Shown here piece by piece: positions 6,384-43,048 of a DNA stretch of 64,000 nucleotides. The notes under the pieces were generated by a model that did no database searches, was not told the DNA's origin, and worked only from the letters and a program-made list of their open reading frames with translations. Position 1 is the stretch's first letter, and each line of letters starts with the position of its first letter. The DNA lies in assembly GCA_024643725.1 (NCBI GenBank), contig JAHEMJ010000014.1:321766-385765 (forward strand), written 5' to 3'. Source of the DNA: Crocinitomicaceae bacterium. GTDB taxonomy: Bacteria > Bacteroidota > Bacteroidia > Flavobacteriales_D > Crocinitomicaceae. A program made the position numbers and the translations under genes.

Positions 6384-7304
6384 ATGAAAAAGACAAATAG
6401 CATAATCGTCGCATTGGGAATTGTAGTTGCTTCTTTTCAAGCACTAGGGCAAGACCCGAACTACAGACAAAATCAGTTCAATGCTTTGATGCTGAATCCT
6501 GCACAAGCAGGAGCAAACTCTTACTCCGATATATCCACCCTAGCGAATGCGCAATGGGGTGGATTCAAGGGGGCGCCAAGAACAATGACGCTTTCTGGGA
6601 ATTTCAATATTTTGAAAAATTTCGGTCTAGGTGGAACCTTGTTACAAGATGAATTAGGTCCAGTTAAAACGACTCAATTCTCTGTAAGTGGAGCCTATCA
6701 TTTGAAATTGACAAATACATGGAGATTGTCCTTGGGTATCCGTGCAATTGCAGGTAATACTTCTGTGAACTTGATGGACTTGGATATTACACAGCCATAT
6801 GACCCGGATATGATGTCAAATCTAACCACAGGACTTGCATTTAATGCAGGTTGGGGTGTATTGTTGTACCACAAAAACTTCTATATCGGTGCGTCTCAAC
6901 CACGCGTAGGTAAAATGAATTTTGTGGATCGTAATTCATACTTATATGTGGATACAAAAGGTGGTTATTTAGGATATATGGGTGGTACCATTCCTTTAAA
7001 TTCAACTTTACAATTGCGCCCAAATGTTGTTGCTCGTTACATGCAAGGACTTCCTTGGACAGTTGATATCAATGCGATTGCATCTCATAAAATCGGGTTG
7101 GACTTTGGTGTAAGCTATCAATTGAAAAGTGCCATTGGTGCGATTGTAGGATACGATTTTAATAATCGTTTCTACTTGGGTTATTCATACACTTATCCAA
7201 TGACAAACATGAATAAAGTAACGGTTCAGTCTCACGAGATTGCTTTGCGTTGGAAATTCAATAATAATACGAGTCGTTGTCAAGGACCACGTTTCTTCAA
7301 CTGA
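6384..7304 (+). CDS. PorP/SprF family T9SS outer-membrane protein
   Basis: A 306-residue protein with a signal peptide (MKKTNSIIVALGIVVASFQALGQ, split here as MKKTNSIIVALG then IVVASFQALGQ) followed by the family opening DPNYRQNQFNALMLNPAQAGA. The rest alternates beta-strand-like segments ending in aromatic residues, as in an outer-membrane barrel (FYLGYSYTYPM; ending with IALRWKF). PorP/SprF proteins are needed for surface delivery of particular T9SS cargos, SprF for SprB in Flavobacterium johnsoniae. This gene starts 21 bases after the adhesin stop and is followed 18 bases later by the OmpA gene, so its likely client is the upstream adhesin. The ATG at 6384 is chosen because the signal peptide begins there. 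Function in attachment is inferred from family and position. Confidence 0.9.
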   Translation: MKKTNSIIVALGIVVASFQALGQDPNYRQNQFNALMLNPAQAGANSYSDISTLANAQWGGFKGAPRTMTLSGNFNILKNFGLGGTLLQDELGPVKTTQFSVSGAYHLKLTNTWRLSLGIRAIAGNTSVNLMDLDITQPYDPDMMSNLTTGLAFNAGWGVLLYHKNFYIGASQPRVGKMNFVDRNSYLYVDTKGGYLGYMGGTIPLNSTLQLRPNVVARYMQGLPWTVDINAIASHKIGLDFGVSYQLKSAIGAIVGYDFNNRFYLGYSYTYPMTNMNKVTVQSHEIALRWKFNNNTSRCQGPRFFN

Positions 7305-7322
7305 TAATATAGAACTCTGCAG

Positions 7323-9272
7323 ATGCGCTTTTTATTAACTACCATTCTTGTTTTCCTTGCTACAGGATCTATTCTAGCTCAGCAGGATGTACAATTAACT
7401 CCAGCTTGTTTCAATACATCTTTTGATGATTTTGGAACGAGAAAGTTGGGCGATAAATTGTATGTTTTGTCTGCGTCAAAAGATCCATGTGAGGATATCA
7501 TGATGGACCCTTACACCAAAAAACCCTATTCTGATTTATATGAGGTGGATGGGTGTAAAACAAAAGACGCAAAATTATTAAGTGCTGAAACAAAAGGATT
7601 ATTAAATGTAAACTCATGTTACTTTGATGGCCCTATTAGCTCGAATGCTGCCGGTACCTTGTTATTCTTTACCAACAACTTTGGTTCCAATGAATATGAA
7701 AAATTAACCATTCATTATTCAACGAAAAACGAAAAAGGGGAGTGGTCTAAACCGATTCCTGTTCCTTTTAATAATGATAATTACAATGTGACCCATCCTT
7801 TCTACGACGAAAAGAACAAGGTATTATACTTTGCTTCTGACATGCCTGGAGGTTTAGGTGGAATGGATATCTATCGCGCAAACTTTGACGGAAAGAAATT
7901 TGGTGACAAAGAACTTGTTCGTTATGTGAACTCAAAAGGTCACGACTGTTTCCCATTCATGTTTGATAACAAATTGTATTTTTCATCAAACGCATTTACT
8001 ACTTTGGGTGGATATGACTTATTTGTCATGGAAAACTTCGAGGTGAAAAATATGGGTGATAAGTTCAATACGAAATACGATGACCTAGCTATCATGTTTA
8101 ATGATAAAAAATCAGGTTATATCACCTCAAATCGTGCGAACAACGGAGTTACCGATGACATTTATGAGTTTAAACTGATCGATCTTTTTGTTGATGTGCA
8201 ATTGGCATATGTGGTCAAGGATAAAAATTCTGGAGAAGCAATTCAAGATGTGGCAGTAAAGGTAGTAGATGATTCCACCGGAATGATTCTTTTCCAAGGC
8301 TCTACAGATGAATTAGGTTACTTCTTGCAAACAATGGATAGCATTCCATTAAATGCTGTAAAGAAGTTGAAAATATCCATGGAGAAAGATGGATATGTAT
8401 CGAAAGAAGTAGTCTTCTCTATCACAGCACTTGACACAAATAAAATCAATGTGGCTGATTTGGTTGATTTGAATCTGGAACCTCTTTCTATTGATATGAT
8501 TATCAATGAACTGTTAGGTTTGAAATCCATTTACTACGATTTCGACAAAGCAGATTTGCGCTCCGATGCGATCATCGAATTGGATAAAGTGGTTGCCTTC
8601 ATGAACAAACACTCGAAAATTGAAATTGAATTAGGTTCACATACCGATTGTCGTGGTCCAAAAATCTACAACTTGGATTTATCCAATCGTCGTGCTCAAT
8701 CTGCTGCAAATTACATCAAAGCGCGTATTTCAAATCCAGACCGTATCTCATACAAAGGATATGGTGAAACGATGATGAAAGTCGATTGTCCATGTGAAGG
8801 ACGCATTCGTTCAAAATGTTCGGAAGAAGAAAACCAATTAAATCGTAGAACTGAATTCACGATTAAAAGCTTGAATATCTCAACAGGAGGAAAAAATGTA
8901 AAACCTAAAGTAGGCGTTGCTTTACCGTCTGATGGAAACAGAAACTTTACTTTCAATGAAGATGATCAAGCTGATTTCAGAATTACTCCGGTAACGGAAG
9001 AAAATGAAGGGTTGATTTTCCGTGTGCAAGTAGAGTCTTCACCAACACAGATTCCAAATGCAACGGTGAAATACAAAACTCAAAATGTATACGAATACCA
9101 GCAGGACAATTCCTATAAATACTGTCTTGGTGGAGCGTTTAAGACATTGAAAGAAGCGATCGCTTTCCAAGATAAAATGCGTCAAAATGGATATGCTGAG
9201 GCTTTCGTTATTGCATTTAATCAAGGCAAACGAATCACCATTGAACAAGCGAAAAAATTGGCGCAACAATAG
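7323..9272 (+). CDS. OmpA-family envelope anchor with propeller and SPOR-like tail (PorE-like)
   Basis: A 649-residue protein with signal peptide (MRFLLTTILVFLATGSILAQ). Residues about 100-270 hold WD40/PD40-like propeller blades (YFASDMPGGLGGMDIYRA, YFSSNAFTTLGGYDLF, GYITSNRANNG). Residues about 290-380 look like a carboxypeptidase regulatory-type beta-sandwich (VKDKNSGEAIQDVAVKV). Residues about 397-513 form an OmpA peptidoglycan-binding domain (YYDFDKADLRSD, ELGSHTDCRG, LSNRRAQSAANYI, LNRRTEFTI). The last 85 residues (FRVQVESSPTQI, GGAFKTLKEAIAFQDKM, GYAEAFVIAF) have the look of an SPOR module. The order propeller, regulatory sandwich, OmpA matches PorE of the T9SS. It is third in the adhesin-PorP-OmpA operon and probably ties the assembly to the cell wall. 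Confidence 0.88.
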   Translation: MRFLLTTILVFLATGSILAQQDVQLTPACFNTSFDDFGTRKLGDKLYVLSASKDPCEDIMMDPYTKKPYSDLYEVDGCKTKDAKLLSAETKGLLNVNSCYFDGPISSNAAGTLLFFTNNFGSNEYEKLTIHYSTKNEKGEWSKPIPVPFNNDNYNVTHPFYDEKNKVLYFASDMPGGLGGMDIYRANFDGKKFGDKELVRYVNSKGHDCFPFMFDNKLYFSSNAFTTLGGYDLFVMENFEVKNMGDKFNTKYDDLAIMFNDKKSGYITSNRANNGVTDDIYEFKLIDLFVDVQLAYVVKDKNSGEAIQDVAVKVVDDSTGMILFQGSTDELGYFLQTMDSIPLNAVKKLKISMEKDGYVSKEVVFSITALDTNKINVADLVDLNLEPLSIDMIINELLGLKSIYYDFDKADLRSDAIIELDKVVAFMNKHSKIEIELGSHTDCRGPKIYNLDLSNRRAQSAANYIKARISNPDRISYKGYGETMMKVDCPCEGRIRSKCSEEENQLNRRTEFTIKSLNISTGGKNVKPKVGVALPSDGNRNFTFNEDDQADFRITPVTEENEGLIFRVQVESSPTQIPNATVKYKTQNVYEYQQDNSYKYCLGGAFKTLKEAIAFQDKMRQNGYAEAFVIAFNQGKRITIEQAKKLAQQ

Positions 9273-17630: not shown

Positions 17631-18482
17631 TTACTGAACACGAACCAATTCGCCGAAGTACATGGTTTTTTCCGTTTTGGATTCCATGTAAAGTTGGGAA
17701 ATGCTACTTGTTTTGTTAGGGAAATAAATGTCAATTAACTCGCGTAAAAAGTCGCTGTCGACGGTCGGGGAGTATGTATTCATGATTAAGAATCCATCGT
17801 CTTCCAATAAACTGGACGCTGTCATCATCAGTTCATCGATTTTATCCTCGAGTTTCCATTTTTCACCACTGGCACCAATTCCCCATGCTGGTGGATCCAT
17901 GATGATTCCTTTGTAACGATTTTCTCGTTTTACTTCCCTCGCGGCAAATTTCAAAGCATCTTCATGCACCCATTTAATGTTTAACAATTTGCTTTCTTCC
18001 ATATTTCGCTTCGCCCAGTTCAATGTAGACTTGGCAGAATCAACGTGGAAAGTATCCGCGCCTTTTAATCGAGCCATGCACGACGCCGCACCGGTATATG
18101 CAAAAAGGTTCAAGAAACGTTCATCTGCGGAGATCTGTTCTTCAATGAATCGCCAATTGGCTTCTTGTTCTGGAAATAATCCAATGTGTTTGAATTTCGT
18201 CAGCGAAAGTGTGAATTGAAGTCGGTGGTACCGAATGGTCCATTCACTCGGAACATTTTTTTTCAAACACTTCCATTTCCCTTGTTGGGCTTTTCCTTCG
18301 ATGAATTCCCAATGTGCTATCTCGCGCCACTCTGTGAATGGTTTCCCGCTATGGAAATATGCTTGAACTTCGGGACGAATCGTAATGATCGATCCCCATC
18401 GTTCTAGCTTTTTACCACCACCTGCATCAAGTAACTCGTAATCTGCCCAAGGTTGGGCGTAAATTCTAGGAATATCGCTCAT
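17631..18482 (-). CDS. Class I SAM-dependent methyltransferase (RlmI-like, Methyltrans_SAM type)
   Basis: A 283-residue protein without the N-terminal PUA domain of full RlmI. It opens with YAQPWADYELLDAGGGKKLERWG. The SAM-binding region is FLNLFAYTGAASCMARLKGA, then HVDSAKSTLNWAKRNMEES, and the catalytic-type motif is GIIMDPPAWGIG. This looks like the C-terminal half of a 23S rRNA cytosine methyltransferase, but the target is not proven. It is last of three close minus-strand genes (RidA, TPR protein, methyltransferase), with gaps of 21 and 3 bases. Confidence 0.87.
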   Translation of the reverse strand: MSDIPRIYAQPWADYELLDAGGGKKLERWGSIITIRPEVQAYFHSGKPFTEWREIAHWEFIEGKAQQGKWKCLKKNVPSEWTIRYHRLQFTLSLTKFKHIGLFPEQEANWRFIEEQISADERFLNLFAYTGAASCMARLKGADTFHVDSAKSTLNWAKRNMEESKLLNIKWVHEDALKFAAREVKRENRYKGIIMDPPAWGIGASGEKWKLEDKIDELMMTASSLLEDDGFLIMNTYSPTVDSDFLRELIDIYFPNKTSSISQLYMESKTEKTMYFGELVRVQ

Positions 18483-18485
18483 TCA

Positions 18486-19067
18486 TTAACGCATTTTTGG
18501 CGTTTTCTTACGTCCACCCATCATTTGGGCCATGCGCATTTGGTTTTTTGAAGGCGCCATCTGAAGTTGACTTTGCATCATCTTAATTTGGTCGCGCATC
18601 ATGCCGTTTTTATCCAATTTTTTGGCTTCATTTAATAATGAAACTGCTTCGCTTTTTCTGCCTGTTTGTGCGCAAATTCCTGCTAAATGCATCCGTGCAA
18701 CGGCATTGTCTTCTGCTGTTCTTAATCCAAGCTCCATTGCTCTTCTCAATAATTTTTCACTTTGTGCAAATCCAAGTTCTTGTCCGCCCATCACCGCTTT
18801 TAAAAACAAGACATATGCATGCTGTCTCTTCGGTAAATACTGTGGTTGTGTAATTCGGTCGATGTATTTTTTCGCTTTATCCGTATTTCCAACGCGCATC
18901 TGATTTAAGGCTAACAATACATTTTCGTTTCTGAAAAAAGAAAGGATAATCAACGCTGTAACGAATAGGAAGGTAATACCCCATCCCCAATGTCCAGAAG
19001 TGAATAAATAAACGTTAAATCCTGTTGCAACAAGGGCTAAAACAATGCGGATAATAAAAGCAATCAT
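18486..19067 (-). CDS. Membrane-anchored protein with a TPR-like region
   Basis: A 193-residue protein. Two N-terminal membrane segments (MIAFIIRIVLALVATGFNVYLF; WGWGITFLFVTALIILSFF) are followed by helical repeats of TPR type (LLALNQMRVGNTDKAKKYIDRI, KLLRRAMELGLRTAEDNAVARMHLAGI, RKSEAVSLLNEAKKL). The tail is Met/Gln/Lys-rich (MRMAQMMGGRKKTPKMR). I do not know a function; TPRs suggest a protein-binding scaffold on the cytosolic side. It sits between RidA and the methyltransferase in one run of genes. Confidence 0.78.
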   Translation of the reverse strand: MIAFIIRIVLALVATGFNVYLFTSGHWGWGITFLFVTALIILSFFRNENVLLALNQMRVGNTDKAKKYIDRITQPQYLPKRQHAYVLFLKAVMGGQELGFAQSEKLLRRAMELGLRTAEDNAVARMHLAGICAQTGRKSEAVSLLNEAKKLDKNGMMRDQIKMMQSQLQMAPSKNQMRMAQMMGGRKKTPKMR

Positions 19068-19088: not shown

Positions 19089-19523
19089 TTAATCGATGGC
19101 AGCAATACACTTTAATTCAATCGCAATAGGCGTTGGAAGCGAATTGATTTCCACAGTTGTGCGACAAGGTAAATTGTCCTTAAAGTATTCAGCGTACACC
19201 CGATTATACACGTGAAAATCACGTTTCATGTGAACCAAGAATACCGTCACATCCACCAGTTGATCCCAACTTGAACCAGATTCCTCCAGGATGATGCGAA
19301 CGTTGTCAAAAACACTTCGACATTGCGCTTCAAAGTCGAATTCAATGAAATTACCATTTTTGTCTAATTTTAATCCGGGTACAGCGGAATCGGTATCATC
19401 TGAACCTGCGACTCTTGGACCAACACCGGATAAAAAAAGTAGGTTTCCTACACGACGCGCATGTGGATACAATCCAACAGGTTTCGGTGCTTTATTTGTG
19501 GAAATACGATTTTGATTTGACAT
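19089..19523 (-). CDS. RidA-family protein, 2-aminomuconate-deaminase-like branch
   Basis: A 144-residue protein. I use the ATG at 19523 (MSNQNRIST) because the family begins there; the frame could extend 11 codons upstream. Features are KAPKPVGLYPHARRVGNLLFLSG (as KAPKPVGLYPHARR then VGNLLFLSG), FEAQCRSVFDNVRIILEE, DVTVFLVHMK, YNRVYAEYF and RTTVEINSLPTPIAIELKCIA. The Rid active-site arginine is present (R121) with a late glutamate (E136). The PHARR start and GVGPRV segment resemble 2-aminomuconate deaminases of tryptophan/kynurenine breakdown more than housekeeping RidA. No kynurenine-pathway neighbours are present, so that assignment is tentative. Confidence 0.85.
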   Translation of the reverse strand: MSNQNRISTNKAPKPVGLYPHARRVGNLLFLSGVGPRVAGSDDTDSAVPGLKLDKNGNFIEFDFEAQCRSVFDNVRIILEESGSSWDQLVDVTVFLVHMKRDFHVYNRVYAEYFKDNLPCRTTVEINSLPTPIAIELKCIAAID

Positions 19524-19610
19524 TTCTAAATCTTTCGGCAAATATACGAAAAGCAATCGATTTTGTCCGCTAGGCCGAACAAGACACTCGGATACTTACA
19601 GATAATTGTG

Positions 19611-19618
19611 TAACTTCG
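19611..19618 (+). promoter_or_regulatory. Possible -7 box for the glycosyltransferase-PorZ operon
   Basis: TAACTTCG has one mismatch to TAnnTTTG and ends 6 bases before the ATG at 19625. There is no clear TTG upstream. Confidence 0.3.
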
Positions 19619-19624
19619 CTTCAC

Positions 19625-20575
19625 ATGGAACAGAATTCCAAACATATCGAATTGTCGGTGGTCATTCCAACGTGTAACGAAGAAGGAAATATTGTCCCGA
19701 TGTACGAGCAATTGTGCGCTGTCATGGCCGAAATAAACATCCCTCATTTCGAGTTTATTTTTGTCGATGACGGAAGTACCGACCAATCCTTGTTTCATGT
19801 GCAAACATTGCGTGCAAAGGACAGTCGCGTGAAGTTCATTCAGTTAAGTAGAAACTTTGGACACCAAAATGCGCTGAAAGCTGGGTTGGATCACGCGTCA
19901 GGATTGGCTGTCATCAGCATGGATGCCGATTTGCAACATCCACCTGCGCTCATTCCGGTCCTTGTGGAAAAATGGAAACAAGGATTTGAAGTCGTATATA
20001 CGATTCGCAAAGACGATCAAAAAGTACCATTATTGAAAAAATGGACATCCAAAGGATTTTACCGCATCACCAATAAATTGGCAGAAATTCCAATGGAGGA
20101 AGGAACAGCAGATTTCCGTTTACTGGATCGTAAAGTCATTGAGGCACTACGTCAGTACACGGAAGCCCATTTGTTTTTACGCGGTATCATTCCTTCCCTT
20201 GGATTTAAACAAATAGGGATTCCTTACATCCCAAATGCACGTGTCTCCGGACAGACAAAATACTCCTTTTCGAAAATGCTTCGCTTTGCCTTGAATGGGA
20301 TTACATCCTCAAGTGCGAAACCCTTATATTTTTCCATCTACACAGGCTTGTTTTTTGCTCTGCTCGCTTTCCTTTATGGGTTATATGCGATTTACATTGC
20401 GGCATTTACAGATCAGGCAATCACTGGTTGGACCTCCATTATCGCATCGATCTTGTTTATTGGAGGCATTCAATTGATCATGATAGGAATTGTCGGGATA
20501 TACTTGGGTAAATTGTTTATTCAAAGCAAGAATCGTCCAAATTATTTGATTACAGAAAAAGAACTAGAAGCATGA
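19625..20575 (+). CDS. GT2 polyprenyl-phosphate sugar transferase (GtrB/ArnC/DPM1-like)
   Basis: A 316-residue protein. The N-terminal GT-A domain shows LSVVIPTCNEEGNIVPMYEQL, FIFVDDGSTDQSL, FIQLSRNFGHQNALKAGLDHA and the metal-binding MDADLQHPPALIP. The acceptor region is GTADFRLLDRKVIEAL, then FLRGIIPSLGFKQIGIPYIP and GQTKYSFSKMLRFALNGI. Two C-terminal membrane segments follow (LYFSIYTGLFFALLAFLYGLYAIYIA; SIIASILFIGGIQLIMIGIVGIYLG). Enzymes of this shape transfer a sugar from a nucleotide donor to undecaprenyl phosphate on the cytosolic face. Its stop overlaps the next start (ATGA), which encodes a plausible GT-C user of that lipid-linked sugar. Confidence 0.9.
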   Translation: MEQNSKHIELSVVIPTCNEEGNIVPMYEQLCAVMAEINIPHFEFIFVDDGSTDQSLFHVQTLRAKDSRVKFIQLSRNFGHQNALKAGLDHASGLAVISMDADLQHPPALIPVLVEKWKQGFEVVYTIRKDDQKVPLLKKWTSKGFYRITNKLAEIPMEEGTADFRLLDRKVIEALRQYTEAHLFLRGIIPSLGFKQIGIPYIPNARVSGQTKYSFSKMLRFALNGITSSSAKPLYFSIYTGLFFALLAFLYGLYAIYIAAFTDQAITGWTSIIASILFIGGIQLIMIGIVGIYLGKLFIQSKNRPNYLITEKELEA

Positions 20576-22191
20576 TCCTTGCTGTGCGCAAATGGCCCAT
20601 TCAGTTTCAAACACTTCTGTTGTTGGTTATCTTGTTCAGTCTGTACGGGGTGTTTAGTCAATTTTTTTCAGGAATATTGCCCATCCACGAATGGCGCAAA
20701 ACAGATTCCCTTTCCATTGCCTTGAATTACGCCAAAGGCGCCTCCTTTTTAGAACCACAGACACAATGGATTTCTGCGAATGGAAATCGCAATGCAGCTG
20801 CGGAATTCCCAATCATCTATTACTTGCTTGGAAACATCTGGAACATTGTTGGTTACCACGAATGGATATCAAAAGTACTTTCGTTGTCCTTGTTGTTTAT
20901 GTCCATTTCGCTTTTCAGTGAAGTCATGGAATTTGTACTTAAAAACAAGCAAAAGGCCTTGCTTTTTTCTTTGATGATGGCGAGTTCACCAGTACTTATT
21001 TTTTATGCGGATACCATTTTGCCGAATATCTTTGCGTTTTCGTTCCTCCTTCTTGGAGCGTATGGCGTTTTTCATTTTTTGAAATCCAAACAAGTTTTTT
21101 GGCTTGGATTCTTCACCCTATTTCTCGGATTGGCCGTTCTCTTGAAAATTACAGCGCTTATTTCTATTCTGACTTTTGGAGGTGCATGGGTGGTTTATAG
21201 CATCTTGTATCATCGCAAATCCTTTAAAGAACATGCTTTCTTTTACCTTGCTTTCATATCGTCATTTGCATTGATATTTACTGCGACATTCCTCTGGTAT
21301 CGCTATGCGATTCATTACAATAAAGCAATGGGTTCCGACTTATTTTCGACAACCATTCGTCCAATTTGGGAAGTGGATGCAGACACACGAAAAGCGATAT
21401 GGGAACAGTTTTGGAGGCACATGTTGCCGGGATTGTATCACCCAAGTTTACTGCTTATTGCTGTCCTTTTCTTTTTTTATGCGGCATGGAAAAAATGGTT
21501 GTCTCCATTCATAATTTGCCTCGTTATCATCGGATTTATCGGGTGCCTTTCCTATTTTATCCTTTGGTTCTGGGTATTTGATGTACATGATTATTACCTC
21601 ATTGAAATCTTGTTTTTCCCTTTGTTGCTCTTTTACCTACTGTTCATCGGAATGGACCGCTTGAGAATCGAAAAAAGAAGCAGAATTAGCTTCTCAATCA
21701 TTTGGGTTGCATTGGTTTTTTTACAGGCCATTTCATATGCGCATTGGTCATTTGGTAAAGAGAATTTCATTACGAAAAACACGCCATTTGTTAGTCAATT
21801 TGTGAAAGGGAACTGGGGGTATTTTCACTTTTACCATAAAGAACACCTCGGACAATTGCAATCAGCAGTAAAGGATCTTCAAAAGATAATTCCGGAATCT
21901 GACACGGTGATTTGTTTATCAGACCCTTCACCTAACATTCAGTTATACACGTTAAATCGAGTGGGGTATTCACAATACAGTTTCCATGAACCGTTCGATG
22001 ACGAAACATTACAATTGGCAGAATGGATGCAGAAAGGAGCTAATTTTGCACTGATCATTACAGAGGCGAATTGGGAACCGCGAAAAGATTGGGAAGTGTT
22101 TTTACATTATCCCCTTTATCAAAAAGGAAATGTTCGTTTGTTTGATTTAAGACCATATAAGCGAAAAAATAAAGGTAGTAAGCCAATTTAA
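20572..22191 (+). CDS. Multi-span GT-C (ArnT/PMT-like) glycosyltransferase
   Basis: A 539-residue membrane protein with about ten hydrophobic segments. The first loop after the first membrane span holds an acidic/aromatic stretch (LPIHEWRKTDSLSIALNYA, then AAEFPIIYYLLGNIW), as in GT-C enzymes that take sugars from polyprenyl phosphate carriers on the periplasmic side. Later loops contain SSPVLIFYADTILPN and FDVHDYYLIEILFFP. The C-terminal 140 residues are a soluble domain (ESDTVICLSDPSPNIQLYTL). It is translationally coupled to the GT2 gene and followed closely by PorZ. Acceptor is unknown; LPS or surface glycan is an inference. Confidence 0.8.
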   Translation: MILAVRKWPIQFQTLLLLVILFSLYGVFSQFFSGILPIHEWRKTDSLSIALNYAKGASFLEPQTQWISANGNRNAAAEFPIIYYLLGNIWNIVGYHEWISKVLSLSLLFMSISLFSEVMEFVLKNKQKALLFSLMMASSPVLIFYADTILPNIFAFSFLLLGAYGVFHFLKSKQVFWLGFFTLFLGLAVLLKITALISILTFGGAWVVYSILYHRKSFKEHAFFYLAFISSFALIFTATFLWYRYAIHYNKAMGSDLFSTTIRPIWEVDADTRKAIWEQFWRHMLPGLYHPSLLLIAVLFFFYAAWKKWLSPFIICLVIIGFIGCLSYFILWFWVFDVHDYYLIEILFFPLLLFYLLFIGMDRLRIEKRSRISFSIIWVALVFLQAISYAHWSFGKENFITKNTPFVSQFVKGNWGYFHFYHKEHLGQLQSAVKDLQKIIPESDTVICLSDPSPNIQLYTLNRVGYSQYSFHEPFDDETLQLAEWMQKGANFALIITEANWEPRKDWEVFLHYPLYQKGNVRLFDLRPYKRKNKGSKPI

Positions 22192-22218
22192 TTGAAAAAT
22201 ATGCGTTATAGGCTCGAC

Positions 22219-24537
22219 ATGAAACTCTTTCTCTCCATCCTCCTCGTTTTTGTTGCCCTTCAATCGAAGGCTCAAATCGGTATGGGGACATGGAAACTAC
22301 ATGTCGCGACAGCCAAAGCCATTGATGTGGTTGCCTCGGAATCTAAAGTCTACACGGCTTATGTCAATGGGCTTTCCATTTATGACATAGCGAGCGATGA
22401 ACATGCGCTCATGACTGCCCTTAATGGACTTTCAGACATTGACATTTCATGCCTTTACTATGATTCGATTCAAGATGCCGTGTACATCGGTTACACCAAT
22501 GGAAACATCGACAAATTGAAAAATGGCCACATATCTAACATTCCAGCCATTAACCTTGCTCAGATTTCCGCCTCTAAACGCATCAATCGTTTTGAACGCC
22601 ATGGGTCTTATTTGTATGTTGCCAATGATTTCTCAGTCATTCAATTAGATGCGAATAAAGATGAGGTGAAGGAAACATTTTATCCTACGAATGCCACAGA
22701 ACGAGTGGTGGATGTGGCCATTTATCAAGATTCCATCTACGCGTTGACCCCAACGCAATTGTTAAAGGGTTTTCTAACAAATCCCCTATTACCAGATTTT
22801 TCTCAATGGGTTCGCGACATCCGTCTTCCTTATCAAACGGCCAATAAATACACTGAGATGGACTTATTTCATAGCCGTCTGGTTGTATTGAAAAAATCAG
22901 AAGATTATGGTTCGGATACGGTTTACCGAATCAACGCGTCTGATTTAGAAGTGGTGACAAACCTGCCATTCACGGTGGAAATTAATTCGATAAATGTGGC
23001 CGGAGAATACCTCTCTGTCAACATTGACGGAGTCATCAACATGTATAATGACAACCTCCAAATTCCTGAGGCCTATGGTGCGGGAAATTTCAATACATGG
23101 TTTTCTTCCGCACGCACTGCACGCAATCAAGTAGGACTTTGGTCGGCTGATTTAAAAGCTGGATTAGTCATGTATCCATCGGAAATAGCCGTCAAATTTT
23201 ATCCCGTTGAAGGAACCAAAAACGATCAATTCTATGCCATGGATGCTCAAAAAGGGAAATTGGCGATTGCATCAGGACGTTTGAACGATAATTTACCCGG
23301 ATTCACGAGAAACGGGGTGCATTTTTTCGAAGAAGGATCGTGGAGTTTACTGAACGTAAAACAAGTGACAGCATGGCCTGAATCCGACACCTGGGATTTC
23401 ATTGACGTAGCAATAAATCCAAATAACACTGATGAGGTCGCAATGGCAACCTATTCCTATCGTCCATTAACGTTAATGAACGCAACTGACACCATGGTTT
23501 TTGACGGGTCGAATTCCCCAATCAAGCCGACATCCATTGGCAATGGTTGGACCCTTGTCTCAGATGTGCTCTTTGATAATCGCGGAAATTTATGGGCGTT
23601 GAACGGGTATTCCGATCGACCTTTAACTGTTCGCGATAAAACTGGAAATTGGTATGCCTTTGACTGCGGAAGCGATGGAAAAAATAAGTTTACGACGAAG
23701 ATGATTCAAGATTATGACGAGATCCTTTGGTTTGCAACAAAAACAGATGGAATCGTCGGATACAAACACAACGGAACGATTTCAGATCCTAGTGATGATC
23801 AATATGTATCCATTAACGATGGACCTTTATCAGGCAACTTGCCTTCCATTGCGGTAACAGCGCTTGCGGCGGACTTTGATGGAGAATTGTGGATCGGGAC
23901 CGAATCTGGTTTTGCTATTTTGTACAATGCCGCTGCTGCTTTCGATGCACAACCGGGGGACTATAATGCACAACAAATCAAGGTGAATTTTGAAGGCAAT
24001 GTGGAATACGTTCTCGGTAAAACGCACATCACCGATATTGAAGTGGATGGAGGAAATCGCAAATGGATGGCAACCGCGAACGCAGGAATTATTCTCATGT
24101 CGGCAGATGGTTCTGAGATATTAGAACAACATACGATGGAAAATTCACCCATCATCTCGAACACAATTTACGACTTGCAACTCAATCAAGAAACAGGGGA
24201 ATTGTACATCGTCACGGATAAGGGCTTAGTCTCTTATCGTACCAACGCTTCGTATGAAGACCCAGAATATTCCGATGTGAAAATATTCCCTAATCCGGTG
24301 AAGCCAACCTATTTTGGGCCGATTACAATCCAAGGGATTCGCTACAATTCAGATGTTAAAATCACCGATGTAGCCGGTAATTTGATTTACCGCACGACAT
24401 CCAATGGAGGAACGGCAACTTGGAATGGACAAAATCTTCAAGGAGAAAAAGTGCCTACCGGGGTATATTTCTTCTGGACAACTACCAATGCCGATGGGCG
24501 TGATCGCAAAGTTGGAAAAGTGATGGTGATTCGCTAG
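22219..24537 (+). CDS. porZ: T9SS attachment-complex protein PorZ
   Basis: A 772-residue protein, close to the length of Porphyromonas gingivalis PorZ. I choose ATG 22219 because the signal peptide MKLFLSILLVFVALQSKAQ begins there; TTG 22192 and ATG 22201 are in-frame alternatives. It opens with the PorZ-type start (GTWKLHVATAKAIDVV, KVYTAYVNGLSIYDI, LNGLSDIDISCLYYD), followed by two beta-propeller regions (YLYVANDFSVIQLD; NKFTTKMIQDYDEILWFATK; GELWIGTESGFAILY). The C-terminus is a type-A-like sorting domain (VKIFPNPVKPTYFGP, VKITDVAGNLIYRT, VPTGVYFFWTT). In P. gingivalis PorZ works with the sortase PorU and presents anionic LPS to it. Neighbouring glycosyltransferase genes fit a glycan link. 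Confidence 0.85.
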   Translation: MKLFLSILLVFVALQSKAQIGMGTWKLHVATAKAIDVVASESKVYTAYVNGLSIYDIASDEHALMTALNGLSDIDISCLYYDSIQDAVYIGYTNGNIDKLKNGHISNIPAINLAQISASKRINRFERHGSYLYVANDFSVIQLDANKDEVKETFYPTNATERVVDVAIYQDSIYALTPTQLLKGFLTNPLLPDFSQWVRDIRLPYQTANKYTEMDLFHSRLVVLKKSEDYGSDTVYRINASDLEVVTNLPFTVEINSINVAGEYLSVNIDGVINMYNDNLQIPEAYGAGNFNTWFSSARTARNQVGLWSADLKAGLVMYPSEIAVKFYPVEGTKNDQFYAMDAQKGKLAIASGRLNDNLPGFTRNGVHFFEEGSWSLLNVKQVTAWPESDTWDFIDVAINPNNTDEVAMATYSYRPLTLMNATDTMVFDGSNSPIKPTSIGNGWTLVSDVLFDNRGNLWALNGYSDRPLTVRDKTGNWYAFDCGSDGKNKFTTKMIQDYDEILWFATKTDGIVGYKHNGTISDPSDDQYVSINDGPLSGNLPSIAVTALAADFDGELWIGTESGFAILYNAAAAFDAQPGDYNAQQIKVNFEGNVEYVLGKTHITDIEVDGGNRKWMATANAGIILMSADGSEILEQHTMENSPIISNTIYDLQLNQETGELYIVTDKGLVSYRTNASYEDPEYSDVKIFPNPVKPTYFGPITIQGIRYNSDVKITDVAGNLIYRTTSNGGTATWNGQNLQGEKVPTGVYFFWTTTNADGRDRKVGKVMVIR

Positions 24538-24578: not shown

Positions 24579-24914
24579 ATGAAACAATTTGTTCTTTGCA
24601 CCTTTTTTGTGCTTTGTTCTACCCTTGGATTCTCTCAAAAAGTATTCTCTGTGAATTATGCTAGTCAGGCAGATGTTAAAGTATATGTCGTAAAATATGA
24701 AAGCCAAGCTGATTTGAAAGTGTATAAAGTTAAATACGAAAGTCAGGCAGGTGATAACAACGGAAAGTGGTTTTTTACGCAGTACGAAAGTCAAGCTAAA
24801 AAATCGATTTACTTTGTTGATTATGAAAGTCAAGCCGATTTGAAAATTTACTTTGTTGAGTATGAAAGTCAGGCTGGATGGAGAAATGCCGCGAAAAAAC
24901 AACTGTTGTACTAA
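24579..24914 (+). CDS. Small secreted YESQA-repeat protein (DUF6150-like)
   Basis: A 111-residue protein with signal peptide (MKQFVLCTFFVLCSTLGFSQ). The mature part is six imperfect short repeats built around Y-x-S-Q-A: VNYASQADVKVY, VKYESQADLKVY, VKYESQAGDNNGKWF, TQYESQAKKSIYF, VDYESQADLKIYF, VEYESQAGW. Alternating hydrophobic and charged residues suggest short beta-strands. It resembles a family I remember as DUF6150, for which a deeply knotted seven-crossing fold has been reported or predicted; I cannot verify that here. The stop codon abuts the pnuC start without a gap, so co-translation with NAD-precursor uptake is likely. Function is unknown. Confidence 0.8.
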   Translation: MKQFVLCTFFVLCSTLGFSQKVFSVNYASQADVKVYVVKYESQADLKVYKVKYESQAGDNNGKWFFTQYESQAKKSIYFVDYESQADLKIYFVEYESQAGWRNAAKKQLLY

Positions 24915-29758: not shown

Positions 29759-29799
29759 ATTAACCCCATGTTAATTTTTTATGAATGAAGTATTATTCG

Positions 29800-29807
29800 T
29801 ACATTCG
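29800..29807 (+). promoter_or_regulatory. Possible -7 box for the GEVED/Kelch cluster
   Basis: TACATTCG has one mismatch to TAnnTTTG and ends 15 bases before ATG 29823. It lies inside the longer frame that begins at 29781, which supports the later start. Confidence 0.3.
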
Positions 29808-29822
29808 GATAAATACTACTAC

Positions 29823-30956
29823 ATGATTAAATTTTTACTCACGGCATTTTCCTGTTATTTTTCGGTCGCATTTGCGCAATATTGTACGCTAAATGTTGGA
29901 CCAACTTCAACAGCTGATTCAAATGTTGAATTGGTTCAAATCTCTGGCGCTTCTGGAAATATAAATTACACTGGTTGTCCTGGTGTGATAGGCGTGCAAG
30001 ACTTGACCACGCTTTCTGTAGCTTTAAACGCAGGGGGATCCTATTTGTTAAATGTGAAATTTGGCACCTGTGGAGGAAATTACGCCGGAGCAGGTGAAGT
30101 ATGGATTGACTTTGATCAAAACGGCAACTTTGATCCATATGAATCGATCGGAACCTGGACAGGAACACCTCCTGCGAATATCACACCCATGAATTTTGTT
30201 GTGCCTGCAAATGCGCAAAATGGAGCCACAAGAATGCGCGTTATGCAACACGAAGCGGGAACCTTGCCCTTAAATCCATGTGCATCGTATACTTGGGGTT
30301 CCGTTATGGATTTTGGCATTACCATTGGAAATGGGATTGATTGTACTGGATTCATTGGGGACGATCAAAATGATCCAATTCTTGTAAGTACATTTCCATA
30401 TACGGATACAAGAGATAATTCTTATTGTTATTCAAATAACAATTACGTCTACCCGTCACCTGACATTTATTATAAACTATCCCCAAATCCACTCATGCAT
30501 TCCATTCATGCCTCACTTTGTGGATCGTCCTTTGATACCTTTATGAGTGTGGTTGATATGAATGGAAATGTCATTGCTTTTAATGATGACGCTACGAATT
30601 GCGGAAGTCAGTCTGCCTTAACGTTCGAAACAACAGGACTTGGATCCGTCTACATCATTGTGGAAGGTTGGGGAATTGAGATGGGGAATTATACCTTGAC
30701 GATTGACGCGGATTATGTGGGAATATCAGAAAATGATTTATCGGATTTACAGGTTTTCCCTAATCCAACAAACGGAGTGATTTCCTTGAATAAGTCCATT
30801 GGAAAAGCGCGCTTGTATCACGTGAATGGGACTTTTTTAGGAAGTTACGACACCAATGCAACACAGGCGATTGATTTAACGCCCTTTCAATCGGGAAGCT
30901 ACTTCCTGAAATCTGAAGACGGAGCAGTTACGGTGAAAATAAATGTAGTAAAATGA
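29823..30956 (+). CDS. Secreted GEVED-domain protein with T9SS type-A sorting domain
   Basis: A 377-residue protein. ATG 29823 starts the signal peptide MIKFLLTAFSCYFSVAFAQ; 29781 would put 14 extra residues before it. Residues about 20-160 form a GEVED domain (YCTLNVGPTSTADSNVELVQ, VKFGTCGGNYAGAGEVWIDF, FDQNGNFDPYESIG, TRMRVMQHEAG). A second beta-rich module follows (DIYYKLSPNPLMHSIHASLCG, FDTFMSVVDMNGNVIAFNDD, TLTIDADYVG), resembling pre-peptidase or bacterial pre-CUB domains. The end is a T9SS sorting domain (QVFPNPTNGVISLN, FQSGSYFLKSEDG). It overlaps the first Kelch gene by four bases (ATGA). A carbohydrate or protein-binding surface role is inferred only. Confidence 0.87.
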   Translation: MIKFLLTAFSCYFSVAFAQYCTLNVGPTSTADSNVELVQISGASGNINYTGCPGVIGVQDLTTLSVALNAGGSYLLNVKFGTCGGNYAGAGEVWIDFDQNGNFDPYESIGTWTGTPPANITPMNFVVPANAQNGATRMRVMQHEAGTLPLNPCASYTWGSVMDFGITIGNGIDCTGFIGDDQNDPILVSTFPYTDTRDNSYCYSNNNYVYPSPDIYYKLSPNPLMHSIHASLCGSSFDTFMSVVDMNGNVIAFNDDATNCGSQSALTFETTGLGSVYIIVEGWGIEMGNYTLTIDADYVGISENDLSDLQVFPNPTNGVISLNKSIGKARLYHVNGTFLGSYDTNATQAIDLTPFQSGSYFLKSEDGAVTVKINVVK

Positions 30957-32098
30957 GAAGTGTATTCGCCTTGCTTTTTTGCCTACTATCCATTGGCGGA
31001 CAAGCTCAATATTGGATTCAGAAGGCATCCTTTGCTGGGGTGGGACGTCACCGTGCCGTTGGATGTGCTACAGAAAACAAAGGGTACCTAGGTTTAGGAC
31101 ATGTGAATGGAACGGGAGTCAATTACTCATACCAAGATTGGTGGGAATATGATCCATCGTCGGATTCTTGGTCTCAACGCGCAAATTATCCGGTAGCCAA
31201 TTATGGAGCGACAAGCTTTGTGGTTAACGGACATCCTTGTGTTGGAGGAGGTGCGGCCCTCGACGGTCAATTTTATCAATTCAATCCACTCGAAAACACA
31301 TGGACAGCCATTGCGCCTTGTCCATTTTTTAATCCAGGGGATACACAAGGGTTCTCGGTAAATAACAAAGGATACGTATATGTCGCTCAGCAAATGGCAG
31401 CGTATGATCCAAGTTCAAATAGTTGGAGTTTGACAGCGAATCCACCCGTGACATTTGGTTCTTGGACATGTGCTTTCACGATTGAAGGAAGTGGCTATGT
31501 GAAAGCTGGAACGAAACTTTATGAATATAAACCAATTCACAATACTTGGACGCAACGCGCAGATTTCCCTGGAGCGAGTACCGGCGGAAGCAGTGGATTC
31601 TCCATCTTACAACGTGGATTTGTTACCTGTGGCTATGTTGGTGGATTAGCCACTGTCACAAGTCAAGTTTGGTCATTTTTTCCCGGAACCAATTCTTGGC
31701 AATTGGAACTTGAGTTCCCTGGAATTAGTAGACGTTTCCCTGTGGCCTTCGCCATTCATAATCGCGGCTATTTTGGAACAGGAACGAATGGAATCAACAT
31801 GAATGATTTCTGGCAATACAATCCAACACTGAACACGTCGGGATTACCTGAAAACTCAGATGTCCAATGCCGGATTTTCCCAAATCCAACCAACGACTTT
31901 CTTCAAGTGGAACTTCCTTCCGAATACGAGTCTGGACTGATAGGGGAAGTGCGTAATTTGAATGGACAAGTCATTCAACAGGTAGAACTTCTTCCTGGAA
32001 TCACACTTATAGACCTATCCCAAGTTTCTTCTGGAACCTATTTTTTGTCTATTCCATACGGAGATAAAGTGCTCAATAAAATGTTTAAAATCTGGTAA
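30953..32098 (+). CDS. Kelch-repeat T9SS surface protein 1
   Basis: A 381-residue protein with signal peptide (MRSVFALLFCLLSIGGQAQ). About six Kelch-type blades form a beta-propeller: WIQKASFAGVGRHRAVGCA, WWEYDPSSDSWSQRANYPV, FYQFNPLENTWTAIAP, AYDPSSNSWSLTAN, YEYKPIHNTWTQRADFPG and DFWQYNP. The C-terminus is a type-A sorting domain (CRIFPNPTNDFLQVEL, VSSGTYFLSI). It is the most divergent of three tandem paralogues. Propellers of this type usually bind proteins or glycans; I see no catalytic site. Confidence 0.88.
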   Translation: MRSVFALLFCLLSIGGQAQYWIQKASFAGVGRHRAVGCATENKGYLGLGHVNGTGVNYSYQDWWEYDPSSDSWSQRANYPVANYGATSFVVNGHPCVGGGAALDGQFYQFNPLENTWTAIAPCPFFNPGDTQGFSVNNKGYVYVAQQMAAYDPSSNSWSLTANPPVTFGSWTCAFTIEGSGYVKAGTKLYEYKPIHNTWTQRADFPGASTGGSSGFSILQRGFVTCGYVGGLATVTSQVWSFFPGTNSWQLELEFPGISRRFPVAFAIHNRGYFGTGTNGINMNDFWQYNPTLNTSGLPENSDVQCRIFPNPTNDFLQVELPSEYESGLIGEVRNLNGQVIQQVELLPGITLIDLSQVSSGTYFLSIPYGDKVLNKMFKIW

Positions 32099-32099
32099 T

Positions 32100-33308
32100 A
32101 TGAAAACAAACATTTGCATTTTTATTTCCATCTTTTTTCCACTTTTAGTCCATGGACAATACAATACCTGGACAAAGAAAAGCGATTTTATTGCTGGAAA
32201 AAGAGAAAGAGCCGTAGCTTTTTCCATTGGTGATTATGGATATATTGCTACAGGAGTTGACACCTCAGAAACATTATTAAACGATTTATGGCAATATAAT
32301 CCGCAGCTTGACACGTGGACTCAAAAAGCGAATTTGCCTGGTGTTGCCCGAAGAGATGCGATTGCTTTTTCTGTCAATGGGAAGGGATATGTTGGTACTG
32401 GAATGGACAACGCCAATGCTTTACTTGGAAACAAATTAAAAGACCTTTGGGAATATGATCCCAACACAAATGCCTGGACGCAAAAAGCCGATTTTCCTGG
32501 TTCTGGTGCCAATGGAATTTATTTTGCAACAGCTTTCACGGTCGATAACAAAGGATACGTCTGTGGAGGGAAGTGGGGTCCAAGTTTGTATTCCAATCAA
32601 CTATGGGAATATAAACCAAGTAATGACGAATGGATTCAACGGGCAAATTTTCCGCCGGGTGTGCGTTACCAATTGAGCTCCTTTAGTATTGGAAACGAAG
32701 GCTATGTCGGACTAGGAGCTAGTCAAGACGTCTTTAAAAAAGATTTTTACCGCTATAATCCGGGATCAAATCAATGGACCCAAATAGCTGATTGTATCGC
32801 AAGTGAAAGAGGTAGTGCATGTACTTTTGTGTTGAACAACCATGGTTTCGTTTGTTTGGGAACAAACGGCGGACTCTTGGGAGATTTGATTGAATATAAT
32901 CCAACATCAAACGAATGGGAGCTACGTTGCGCATATGGTGGAAGTGAACGAAAAAATGCGGTCGCATTTGTGGTGAATGGTCGCGCATTCGTAGGATTAG
33001 GCAAGGGGTATTCGGGTAAAAAGGCAAGTATTCAAGAATATGCTGCACCCAATTATGCACAGTTATCCTCACTTGAGAATGCCTGTGAAATTTACCCAAA
33101 TCCATCCAATGGCCTGGTTCAATTGAAAACAACGATCGCTTTACAATCCATACAAGTGTATAATCAAACGGGGAATTTAGCGTTTGAACAACAGGTCCCT
33201 GCTGCCTTGAATCAGATAGATTTATCGCACTTAAATATGGGTGTATACCATGTTCTTTTGAAGACATTGAACGGAGAGACCATTCAAAAACAATTATTGA
33301 TAGATTAG
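32100..33308 (+). CDS. Kelch-repeat T9SS surface protein 2
   Basis: A 402-residue paralogue starting one base after the previous stop. Signal peptide: MKTNICIFISIFFPLLVHGQ. Kelch blades include WTKKSDFIAGKRERAVAFSI, LWQYNPQLDTWTQKANLPG, RRDAIAFSVNGKGYVGTG, LWEYDPNTNAWTQKADFPG, FYRYNPGSNQWTQIADC and LIEYNPTSNEWELR. The sorting domain reads CEIYPNPSNGLVQLKT and HLNMGVYHVLL. The strong shared blade pattern with the next gene (RRDAVAFELNGYGFVGTG there) indicates tandem duplication. Cell-surface or secreted; partner unknown. Confidence 0.88.
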   Translation: MKTNICIFISIFFPLLVHGQYNTWTKKSDFIAGKRERAVAFSIGDYGYIATGVDTSETLLNDLWQYNPQLDTWTQKANLPGVARRDAIAFSVNGKGYVGTGMDNANALLGNKLKDLWEYDPNTNAWTQKADFPGSGANGIYFATAFTVDNKGYVCGGKWGPSLYSNQLWEYKPSNDEWIQRANFPPGVRYQLSSFSIGNEGYVGLGASQDVFKKDFYRYNPGSNQWTQIADCIASERGSACTFVLNNHGFVCLGTNGGLLGDLIEYNPTSNEWELRCAYGGSERKNAVAFVVNGRAFVGLGKGYSGKKASIQEYAAPNYAQLSSLENACEIYPNPSNGLVQLKTTIALQSIQVYNQTGNLAFEQQVPAALNQIDLSHLNMGVYHVLLKTLNGETIQKQLLID

Positions 33309-33311
33309 GCA

Positions 33312-34511
33312 ATGCATAAATTAACATTACTCATACTGATCAGTCTCTCATTCGACTTTTTCGCTCAGGATTACTGGTTTGTACGCGATACGGTAAAAGG
33401 TTCGCCGAAGTCAGCTATGGCTGCTACTTCATTTCAAAACATTGGGCTAATCATCGGGGGCCTAGATGAATTTGGATTCAAACGCAAAATGTACTCCTAT
33501 TCTCCCTTTCAAGATGATTGGGACGAAGAAGTTTCTTTGGGTGGGCCTTCCGGGGATGGATTAGAACGTGGTTCCTCATGCGCATTTACCCTTTATCATG
33601 AAAACATGCAGAAAGCATACGTGTGTCTTGGACAAACGCCAACAGTTCCGTATATGAAGGATTTGTGGGAGTTTAATCCACAGACCGAAACATGGTCCCA
33701 AAAAGCAAATTTTTCTGGGACACCAAGACGACAAGCGGTTTGCTTTACCGCGACAAATGTGGCTTACGTCGGTACCGGAGAGGATGCTTCTGGATTGAAA
33801 AAAGACTTTTATGCCTATGATCCCGAATCAAACTCGTGGACACAAGTGGCCGATTTTGCAGGTACCGCTAGACGCGATGCTGTTGCGTTTGAATTAAATG
33901 GATATGGATTCGTTGGAACTGGTGATGATGGCACGCTGAAAAATGACCTTTGGATGTACGATTTTCAATCTGACACATGGATTGACAAAGCCAGCTTTCC
34001 AGGAACACCTCGTGCGGGAGCTGTTGCTTGGGGCGCATTCCCAGTTGCGTATTTGGGTACAGGAGAGGACGACTCAGGGGCATTTAAAAATGATTTGTAC
34101 GAGTACAACTATTTCTTAAACGCTTGGGTGCAACGTGCAAATATGCCGGCTCCTGGAAGAAAAAATGCTTTTGCTTTTTACATCGATGGGGTTTCCTATG
34201 TCGGTGCCGGATACAATGGAGTTTTCTTAGAGGATTTTTGGGCCTATTCAGGAACGGCAGGAATAAATCCGCTTGAAACGATAACCCTGCAGTTATTTCC
34301 CAATCCAGTACAACATTATTTACAGATTCAATCTAGCGAGATGATGCAACAGTTGCGCATTTTTTCGATGGATGGAAAACAACTTTTTGCCTCCTTAAAC
34401 CAAGCAAATGAACTGAAATTAGATGTGTCTCAGTGGCCGGCTGGCACTTATCTCTTTCAAAGTGAAATCAAGGGCAAAAAACACGTGAAATCATTTGTTA
34501 AATGCGATTAA
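33312..34511 (+). CDS. Kelch-repeat T9SS surface protein 3
   Basis: A 399-residue paralogue three bases after the second one. Signal peptide: MHKLTLLILISLSFDFFAQ. Blades include LWEFNPQTETWSQKANFSG, FYAYDPESNSWTQVADFAG, RRDAVAFELNGYGFVGTG, LWMYDFQSDTWIDKASFPG and LYEYNYFLNAWVQRANMPA. The sorting domain is LQLFPNPVQHYLQIQ and WPAGTYLFQSE. The last ten bases overlap the start of the lipoprotein gene, which implies coupled translation. Confidence 0.88.
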   Translation: MHKLTLLILISLSFDFFAQDYWFVRDTVKGSPKSAMAATSFQNIGLIIGGLDEFGFKRKMYSYSPFQDDWDEEVSLGGPSGDGLERGSSCAFTLYHENMQKAYVCLGQTPTVPYMKDLWEFNPQTETWSQKANFSGTPRRQAVCFTATNVAYVGTGEDASGLKKDFYAYDPESNSWTQVADFAGTARRDAVAFELNGYGFVGTGDDGTLKNDLWMYDFQSDTWIDKASFPGTPRAGAVAWGAFPVAYLGTGEDDSGAFKNDLYEYNYFLNAWVQRANMPAPGRKNAFAFYIDGVSYVGAGYNGVFLEDFWAYSGTAGINPLETITLQLFPNPVQHYLQIQSSEMMQQLRIFSMDGKQLFASLNQANELKLDVSQWPAGTYLFQSEIKGKKHVKSFVKCD

Positions 34512-39082: not shown

Positions 39083-39085
39083 GAC

Positions 39086-42940: not shown

Positions 42941-42965
42941 AGGTTTCAGTTTAACTTGGTTTAAA

Positions 42966-42973
42966 CAAATGTA
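42966..42973 (-). promoter_or_regulatory. -7 box for the minus-strand adhesin operon
   Basis: On the minus strand the bases read TACATTTG, a perfect TAnnTTTG match, 25 bases before the ATG at 42940. No TTG is seen at normal spacing. Confidence 0.45.
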
Positions 42974-43048
42974 ACGAAATTGAAGGTTGCGAAAAAGTGC
43001 TTGAAAGTTATCCATAGAATTACCATCCTTCGGTCTTCTCAATTAGCC

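Follow-up and report, generated by a model that had tools for sequence, protein, structure and literature searches.

The Gtr O-antigen system of Shigella and Salmonella is made up of GtrA, GtrB and a serotype-specific Gtr protein (PMC11127046, PMC4728340), and its published logic joins a conserved GtrB to a serotype-specific glycosyltransferase of the GT-C type (PMC11127046). A pentofuranose O-antigen system comprises PPPRS, a HAD phosphatase, a MATE flippase and a GT136 GT-C enzyme (PMC11127046). PorZ of the type IX secretion system (T9SS) of Porphyromonas gingivalis binds the polysaccharide part of A-LPS, a lipopolysaccharide (LPS) (PMC8545088), and the first of its propellers spans K39-M322 (PMC5121618). 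The T9SS linking sugar is made by the Wbp/Vim pathway, with WbpA/B/D/E and VimA/E (PMC7468200). Here, we analysed a stretch of 64,000 nucleotides from Crocinitomicaceae bacterium (assembly GCA_024643725.1, contig JAHEMJ010000014.1, positions 321,766 to 385,765), hereafter called the window, in which porZ is preceded by two glycosyltransferase genes. We lean towards reading these two genes as an exchangeable, GtrB-type cassette for periplasmic glycan modification that probably acts on LPS and shares its locus, and perhaps its substrate, with PorZ. To our knowledge, the glycan that anchors T9SS cargos is poorly defined outside a few oral Bacteroidota, and in the open-licence literature we found no paper joining Crocinitomicaceae, type IX secretion and glycosyltransferase, or GtrB, Bacteroidetes, glycosyltransferase and LPS.

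A GtrB-like enzyme and a GT-C protein upstream of porZ

The three genes of interest are as follows.

19625-20575, plus strand: glycosyltransferase family 2 (GT2) protein, GtrB-like polyprenyl-phosphate sugar synthase with two C-terminal transmembrane helices, 316 residues (PF00535, GtrB in the PDB)
20572-22191, plus strand: PMT_2-like glycosyltransferase of the GT-C fold, the cassette's variable member, 539 residues (AlphaFold model, fold searches)
22192-24537, plus strand: porZ, T9SS attachment-complex protein, 781 residues from the TTG codon (NF052228, PF21544, PDB 5M11)

These genes are co-directional and tightly packed, overlapping or nearly abutting. The GT2 stop and the GT-C start overlap as ATGA at 20572-20575, and the candidate start codons of porZ (TTG at 22192, ATG at 22201 and ATG at 22219) lie 0, 9 and 27 bases past the GT-C stop, so that the coordinates of the open reading frames (ORFs) confirm the layout given in a first-pass annotation of this DNA. 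The start at 22219 is favoured because a signal-peptide-like MKLFLSILL... segment can be read from the sequence there. A Bacteroidota-type promoter match was found inside the GT-C gene (22015-22048) in 1 of the 35 loci examined; in the window this promoter pattern occurs at chance level, with 6 matches on the plus strand versus 6.25 expected, and gives no signal. ORFs were called mechanically, and transmembrane segments were counted by simple hydropathy.

The GT2 protein scores 110 bits for its PF00535 domain and aligns over residues 4-311, nearly its full length, with GtrB of Synechocystis (sll0501, PDB 5EKP; E 2.5e-73). Weaker PDB matches are ArnC (E 2.9e-36) and dolichol-phosphate mannose synthase (E 4.9e-17). 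The sequence of the GT-C protein is less telling, as its PMT_2 match is below the cut-off (18.9 versus 26.1 bits), no curated family score is reached, and a sequence search of the PDB gave no match at E up to 1. Its AlphaFold model (pLDDT 83.6, pTM 0.86) has ArnT as the best Foldseek match (E 1.4e-5) and obtains VIA Z scores of 21.3 with OST, 19.8 with ArnT and 19.4 with Pmt1. The top rows of the fold searches are GT-C enzymes (ArnT, OST, PglB, ALG9 and PMT), and the protein is thus predicted to have the ArnT/OST/PMT fold. In an alignment of 25 members, H39, E40, R42, K43, D45 and E78 are invariant. Judged by sequence, the identity of porZ is certain: its product scores 501.2 bits for the curated PorZ family NF052228 (cut-off 260) and 84.9 bits for PF21544, and P. 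gingivalis PorZ (5M11) matches it over the whole length (E 1.4e-62). The PorU sortase is encoded in the same genome (G000:C7). The GtrB match, the GT-C fold and the NF052228 score confirm the gene identities of the first-pass annotation, and the first two also support the lipid-linked sugar transfer module that it predicted.

Exchange of the cassette between RidA and porZ

Exchange is the defining property of this locus. In four close pairs of loci (L and G numbers designate loci and genomes of our collection), the flanking DNA is 84-96% identical and the GT-C genes or the whole cassettes cannot be aligned. The flanks of L050 and L143 are 88% and 90% identical, and their entire cassettes are unalignable. 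L048 and L114 share 90% identity in a flank that begins just before porZ, and they carry different cassettes; the other flank yielded only a 128-base match at 84%. In L220 and L221, flanks of 92% and 91% identity and GT2 genes of 87% identity accompany a DUF2079 versus a PMT_2-like GT-C. Lastly, L224 and L114 share 95.8% identity on a single flank, a stretch of 3.1 kb that takes in the RidA block and GT2, and then differ in their GT-Cs. Conversely, the cassettes of L114 and L143 are alike (66.8% at the DNA level), yet the PorZ tree places their PorZs in different regions. The GT2 tree joins L114 with L224, and L219/L220 with L221, despite their differing GT-Cs (all trees are quick searches). 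Loss was also detected: the GT-C gene is gone from L040 and L049 and kept in their near relatives L044 and L156, and a stop-bearing GT-C remnant is present in G121, the genome of L049. The exchange probably took place by homologous recombination through the conserved flanks. The GC content at third codon positions of the GT-C genes is slightly above that of their own loci (mean +0.02 to +0.05), with no marked composition island.

The locus therefore resembles the Gtr system in that a GtrB homolog is paired with a GT-C fold enzyme and is kept while the neighbouring GT-C gene is replaced. It differs from it by the absence of a flippase gene from the cassette, by the position of the slot beside porZ and RidA, and by its GT-C families, which are PMT_2-like, DUF2079, DUF6311 and YfhO. 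We describe the cassette as Gtr-like, and not as a Gtr operon, because GtrA is not beside it. The fact that DUF2079 and DUF6311 proteins are interchangeable with other GT-Cs suggests that they have polyprenyl-phosphate-sugar transferase activity.

The collection contains 86 genomes of the window's genus, 75 of which encode a PorZ over the cut-off. Out of 76 porZ loci of the genus (75 and the window), four could not be judged because of contig ends, leaving 72 in view. Pfam names come from representative proteins, to which the remaining loci were assigned by BLASTP; the DUF6311 representative scores 27.1 bits for a cut-off of 27, and one YfhO representative is just under the cut-off. Many of the genomes are fragmented assemblies, and the counts ignore kinship. 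Genes of glycosyltransferase type are found upstream of porZ in 63 of the 72 loci: a PMT_2-like GT-C preceded by GT2 (11 loci, with GT2 beyond the contig end in L157), the same pair with a DUF6311 protein (2 loci), GT2 alone (13 loci), DUF2079 (12 loci, with GT2 except in L115, which is cut by the contig), DUF2079 and YfhO (2 loci), a divergent YfhO (4 loci), or a divergent GT-C with UbiA and HAD (19 loci, L043 and L160 being cut by contig ends). The other nine have none of the cassette gene types. These states require 15 changes on the PorZ tree of these related genomes. One copy of DUF2079 is present in each of 21 of the 86 genomes, near porZ in 15. In six genomes YfhO gives two matches that exceed the cut-off; one of the two is beside porZ in G115, G166, G148, G168 and G195, and neither could be placed at porZ in G142. 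The single YfhO match of G162 is at porZ. Homologs of the window GT-C (40-46% identical) also sit far from porZ in L227-L237, mostly of the GT2-only clade, beside a gene that we take to be IspG-like from its N-terminus.

At E up to 1e-60, the 86 genomes harbour 49 GT2 homologs, 38 of which precede porZ in the same orientation, at 14-5706 bases match to match and with 0-3 cassette genes in between. This linkage, which is kept across a deep clade, exceeds chance, but since the genomes are related the 38 cases are not independent events. Contig ends interrupt the copies in G196, G187 and G166, which are consistent with adjacency to porZ; the copy of G159 cannot be judged, and that of G177 is a 40% relative within another cluster. 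In six genomes GT2 is apart from porZ, on other contigs in G206, G148, G195, G204 and G168 and 18 kb away in G139. As a control, 30 PorU loci of the genus showed no match to cassette proteins within 1.5 kb flanks, although these loci amount to one conserved neighbourhood, which limits the control.

The left border of the slot is formed by a block of three genes.

19089-19523, minus strand: divergent gene of the RidA family, bordering the cassette slot on the left (profile match)
18486-19067, minus strand: TPR protein, member of the RidA-TPR-methyltransferase block (profile match, neighbourhood comparison)
17631-18482, minus strand: S-adenosylmethionine (SAM) methyltransferase, member of the same block (profile match, neighbourhood comparison)

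In 32 loci of the genus with porZ in view, RidA is no more than 1.5 kb from GT2; in five loci with no porZ in view, the distance is at most 2.2 kb. Cassettes located away from porZ are still near RidA in L218 (102 bases), L222 (973), L219 (1247) and L220 (2207), with one or two ORFs in between in the last three. Among the other porZ-less cassette loci, L224 reaches a contig end, and RidA is out of view in L221, a short contig, and in L223. RidA is likewise out of view, with the cassette still beside porZ, in L050 and L143, which represent one lineage; in L048, L119 and L151 the view towards RidA is cut by the end of the examined stretch or contig. Conversely, RidA adjoins porZ without GT2 in five loci whose genomes have no GT2 homolog at the same threshold. 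As RidA proximity is kept without porZ, and RidA and porZ adjoin without GT2, the cassette occupies a RidA-porZ slot and does not cling to porZ. In L057 and L078, from another genus, the order is porZ-recO-RidA-TPR-methyltransferase, which suggests that the RidA block and porZ were already linked when the cassette arrived, and that the block was inverted afterwards.

A sister clade within the genus has a different, non-homologous module of pentose type around porZ, composed of UbiA, HAD and GT-C genes and a flippase-like gene downstream, with no RidA gene in view. Its UbiA protein (L046) exceeds the cut-off for decaprenyl-phosphate phosphoribosyltransferase (235.7 versus 234 bits). The best VIA match of its GT-C protein is ArnT (Z 16.2), and Foldseek gave no match under E 0.001. 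The flippase-family gene lies 0.7-1 kb beyond porZ in 15 of the 19 loci (PF01943 in L046, BLASTP in the others). Its parts are of the types found in the pentofuranose O-antigen system; it differs in being split around porZ, and it is absent from the window. Loci of the E clade (e.g. L046, L054 and L120) encode a further membrane protein of 569-577 residues, which in most of the loci that show it starts about 4.7-5 kb upstream of porZ. Three members have no Pfam match, and one of the two scanned has a weak match to the NCBIfam 'cell surface glycopolymer formation' family.

Distribution outside the genus and variation of PorZ

The linkage of a GtrB/GT-C module to porZ is clade-specific and was found only in the window's genus. 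BLASTP searches with the cassette proteins over 5 kb upstream of porZ detected the module in 0 of 22 loci from the family's other genera and in 0 of 40 loci of the order, save two weak GT2-domain matches in the latter (27-29% identity, 4.7-4.9 kb upstream of porZ). A conserved T9SS operon across the order was considered and rejected, as these two matches were all that BLASTP with the cassette proteins gave in the 40 loci. The linkage, whose conservation the first-pass annotation proposed to check, holds within the genus (glycosyltransferase-type genes in 63/72 loci; GT2 in 38/49) and breaks down in the family and the order. The gene directly after porZ is recO in 20 of the 22 family loci outside the genus; recO was detected in 9 of the 40 order loci.

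LPS-type genes were nevertheless identified near porZ in three of the 22 family loci (L061, L067 and L074). A cytidylyltransferase gene, presumably of the KdsB type, overlaps porZ in L061, a GT2 gene is directly upstream of it in L067, and L074 has a GT2 and a GT9 gene nearby, with one opposite-strand ORF in between. At the order level, one of the 40 loci (L199) has a PMT_2-family gene, over the cut-off, directly downstream of porZ. In this locus of another family (L199:8477-11720), the gene is followed by that of a second, unassigned multi-transmembrane protein, an arrangement that we regard as an isolated parallel to the genus pattern. Other membrane neighbours of porZ in the order include an MBOAT gene (L196), a gene for an unassigned 615-residue protein (L195) and LPG_synthase_TM (L201). 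Multi-transmembrane neighbours adjoin porZ in 45 of 146 places in the genus versus 25 of 459 further away; the figures are 0/42 versus 3/160 in the family and 4/76 versus 0/156 in the order. This measure (400-950 residues, at least 5 hydropathy segments) is crude, includes proteins other than glycosyltransferases and is uncorrected for kinship.

Besides the signal peptide, the most variable part of PorZ is residues 211-330 (mean pairwise identity 0.34-0.40), compared with 0.65-0.86 in residues 541-780. By P. gingivalis numbering, the variable part is largely within the first propeller. GT2 distances follow this propeller more than the second one (partial r 0.58, reached by 0 of 2000 permutations, 36 loci), a correlation confounded by chromosomal nearness and by the faster evolution of the first propeller. 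A tuning of PorZ to the cassette type was also considered and is not supported, as PorZ changed little in the whole-cassette swaps: the first propellers are still 95-97% identical between L050 and L143 and 86-93% identical between L048 and L114. The pair L115/L133 is contrary, with second propellers and C-terminal domains 93-99% identical and first propellers only 24-53% identical; L133 has no cassette. Between these two loci, no DNA alignment is obtained in the first propeller, over bases 122-1015 or so of porZ, a domain-sized exchange, and the first propeller of L133 resembles the L055 version instead. Among 13 named loci of closest relatives, the nearest PorZ is that of Crocinitomicaceae bacterium Ww77 (93% identical). 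Eleven of the 13 are Crocinitomicaceae or Flavobacteriales metagenome-assembled genomes (MAGs); the other two, labelled as the unrelated genera Chryseobacterium and Polynucleobacter, are probably mislabelled MAGs.

Possible roles of the cassette and further genes of the window

In the reading that we favour, GT2 would use a nucleotide donor to attach a sugar to polyprenyl phosphate on the cytoplasmic side of the membrane, a transporter encoded elsewhere would flip the lipid-linked sugar, and the GT-C enzyme would add it in the periplasm to a surface glycan, the LPS polysaccharide being the likeliest acceptor. Within the slot between RidA and porZ, GT2 is often kept and the GT-C gene or the whole cassette exchanged. 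PorZ, which reads LPS polysaccharide, would be a neighbour that perhaps encounters the modified LPS. The cassette does not form a fixed or dedicated component of the T9SS, although it may have some effect on cargo attachment. Several points weigh against this reading. The GtrA flippase is absent from the cassette, the sole PF04138 match of the 95%-complete assembly being on another contig, C1. The GT-C fold occurs in enzymes whose substrates are lipid A (ArnT), proteins (PMT, OST) or glycans, and does not single out an acceptor. For 11 of the 13 loci with GT2 alone, the GT-C homolog of the clade (40-46% identical), where found, adjoins the IspG-like gene instead, so the GT2/GT-C pair is not obligatory. 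Finally, exchange accounts for the position of the cassette without any LPS role.

Another possibility is that of plain positional neighbours, in which an island of glycosyltransferase genes landed by porZ in an ancestor within the genus and was then inherited and shuffled, porZ being to the cassette what gnd is to the enterobacterial O-antigen loci. The cassette stays with RidA no less than with porZ, the co-occurrence is mostly inherited in a few clades, and the region 19400-22400 of the window contains short repeats and no long ones. Against this account, which we consider rather unlikely, stands the sister clade, whose porZ has a second, non-homologous periplasmic glycosylation module with no RidA in view. 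The same module argues for the proposal of the first-pass annotation that the two enzymes make or modify the glycan used by PorU for attaching T9SS cargos, with PorZ presenting it, in a functional operon. The tight co-directional packing in the window, the 38 of 49 GT2 copies upstream of porZ, the LPS-type genes close to porZ in three of the 22 loci from other genera and the correlation of GT2 with the first propeller, confounded as it is by nearness and rate, point the same way. However, six genomes have the cassette at a distance from porZ, four of them with RidA no more than 2.2 kb away, the first propeller is little affected by both whole-cassette swaps, five RidA/porZ loci have porZ without the cassette, and the module was not found in any of the 22 family loci. 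We hold this proposal, a functional operon that serves the T9SS attachment glycan, to be improbable. Alternatively, the cassette might glycosylate periplasmic or secreted proteins in a PMT- or OST-like manner, possibly T9SS cargo domains, with no bearing on LPS. The GT-C model resembles OST and PMT no less than ArnT, and in Cytophaga hutchinsonii a GtrA protein and CHU_3842 were reported to take part in the glycosylation of the T9SS cargo Cel9A (PMC11858162, PMC10202324). By analogy, the exchange of GT-C families with GT2 kept is more reminiscent of surface-antigen modification, and we regard protein glycosylation as quite improbable.

A more speculative extension of the favoured reading, which we regard as doubtful, would make the porZ locus of the genus a glycan-type locus. 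Interchangeable modules, of the GtrB/GT-C or the pentose type, would set the LPS decoration that PorZ reads and that serves as anchor for PorU, so that recombination at one place would change both the surface sugar type and the anchoring of T9SS cargos; the variable first propeller, above all residues 211-330, would be the reader and would partly co-exchange, as in L133 versus L115. In any case, close relatives that differ mainly in the GT-C gene by porZ constitute a natural set bearing on LPS decoration versus PorZ/PorU-dependent anchoring, and they document a gtr-like, serotype-style cassette exchange in environmental Bacteroidota.

Directly after porZ, the window contains one more gene.

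24579-24914: DUF6150 protein with repeated YESQA-type units

ORFs of 111-116 residues occupy the same place in several relatives, and the ORF that precedes pnuC in L142 encodes the same YESQA-type repeats. Several T9SS cargo-type proteins are encoded in the window. Two PorP/SprF genes are located in the regions 6384-9272 and 38081-43042; one is followed by an OmpA-domain gene, and the other is beside the gene for a 1318-residue SprB-repeat protein with a CHU_C tail. Four consecutive genes at 29781-34511 code for proteins with T9SS sorting tails, two of which contain Kelch repeats over the cut-offs and a third one Kelch repeats below them.

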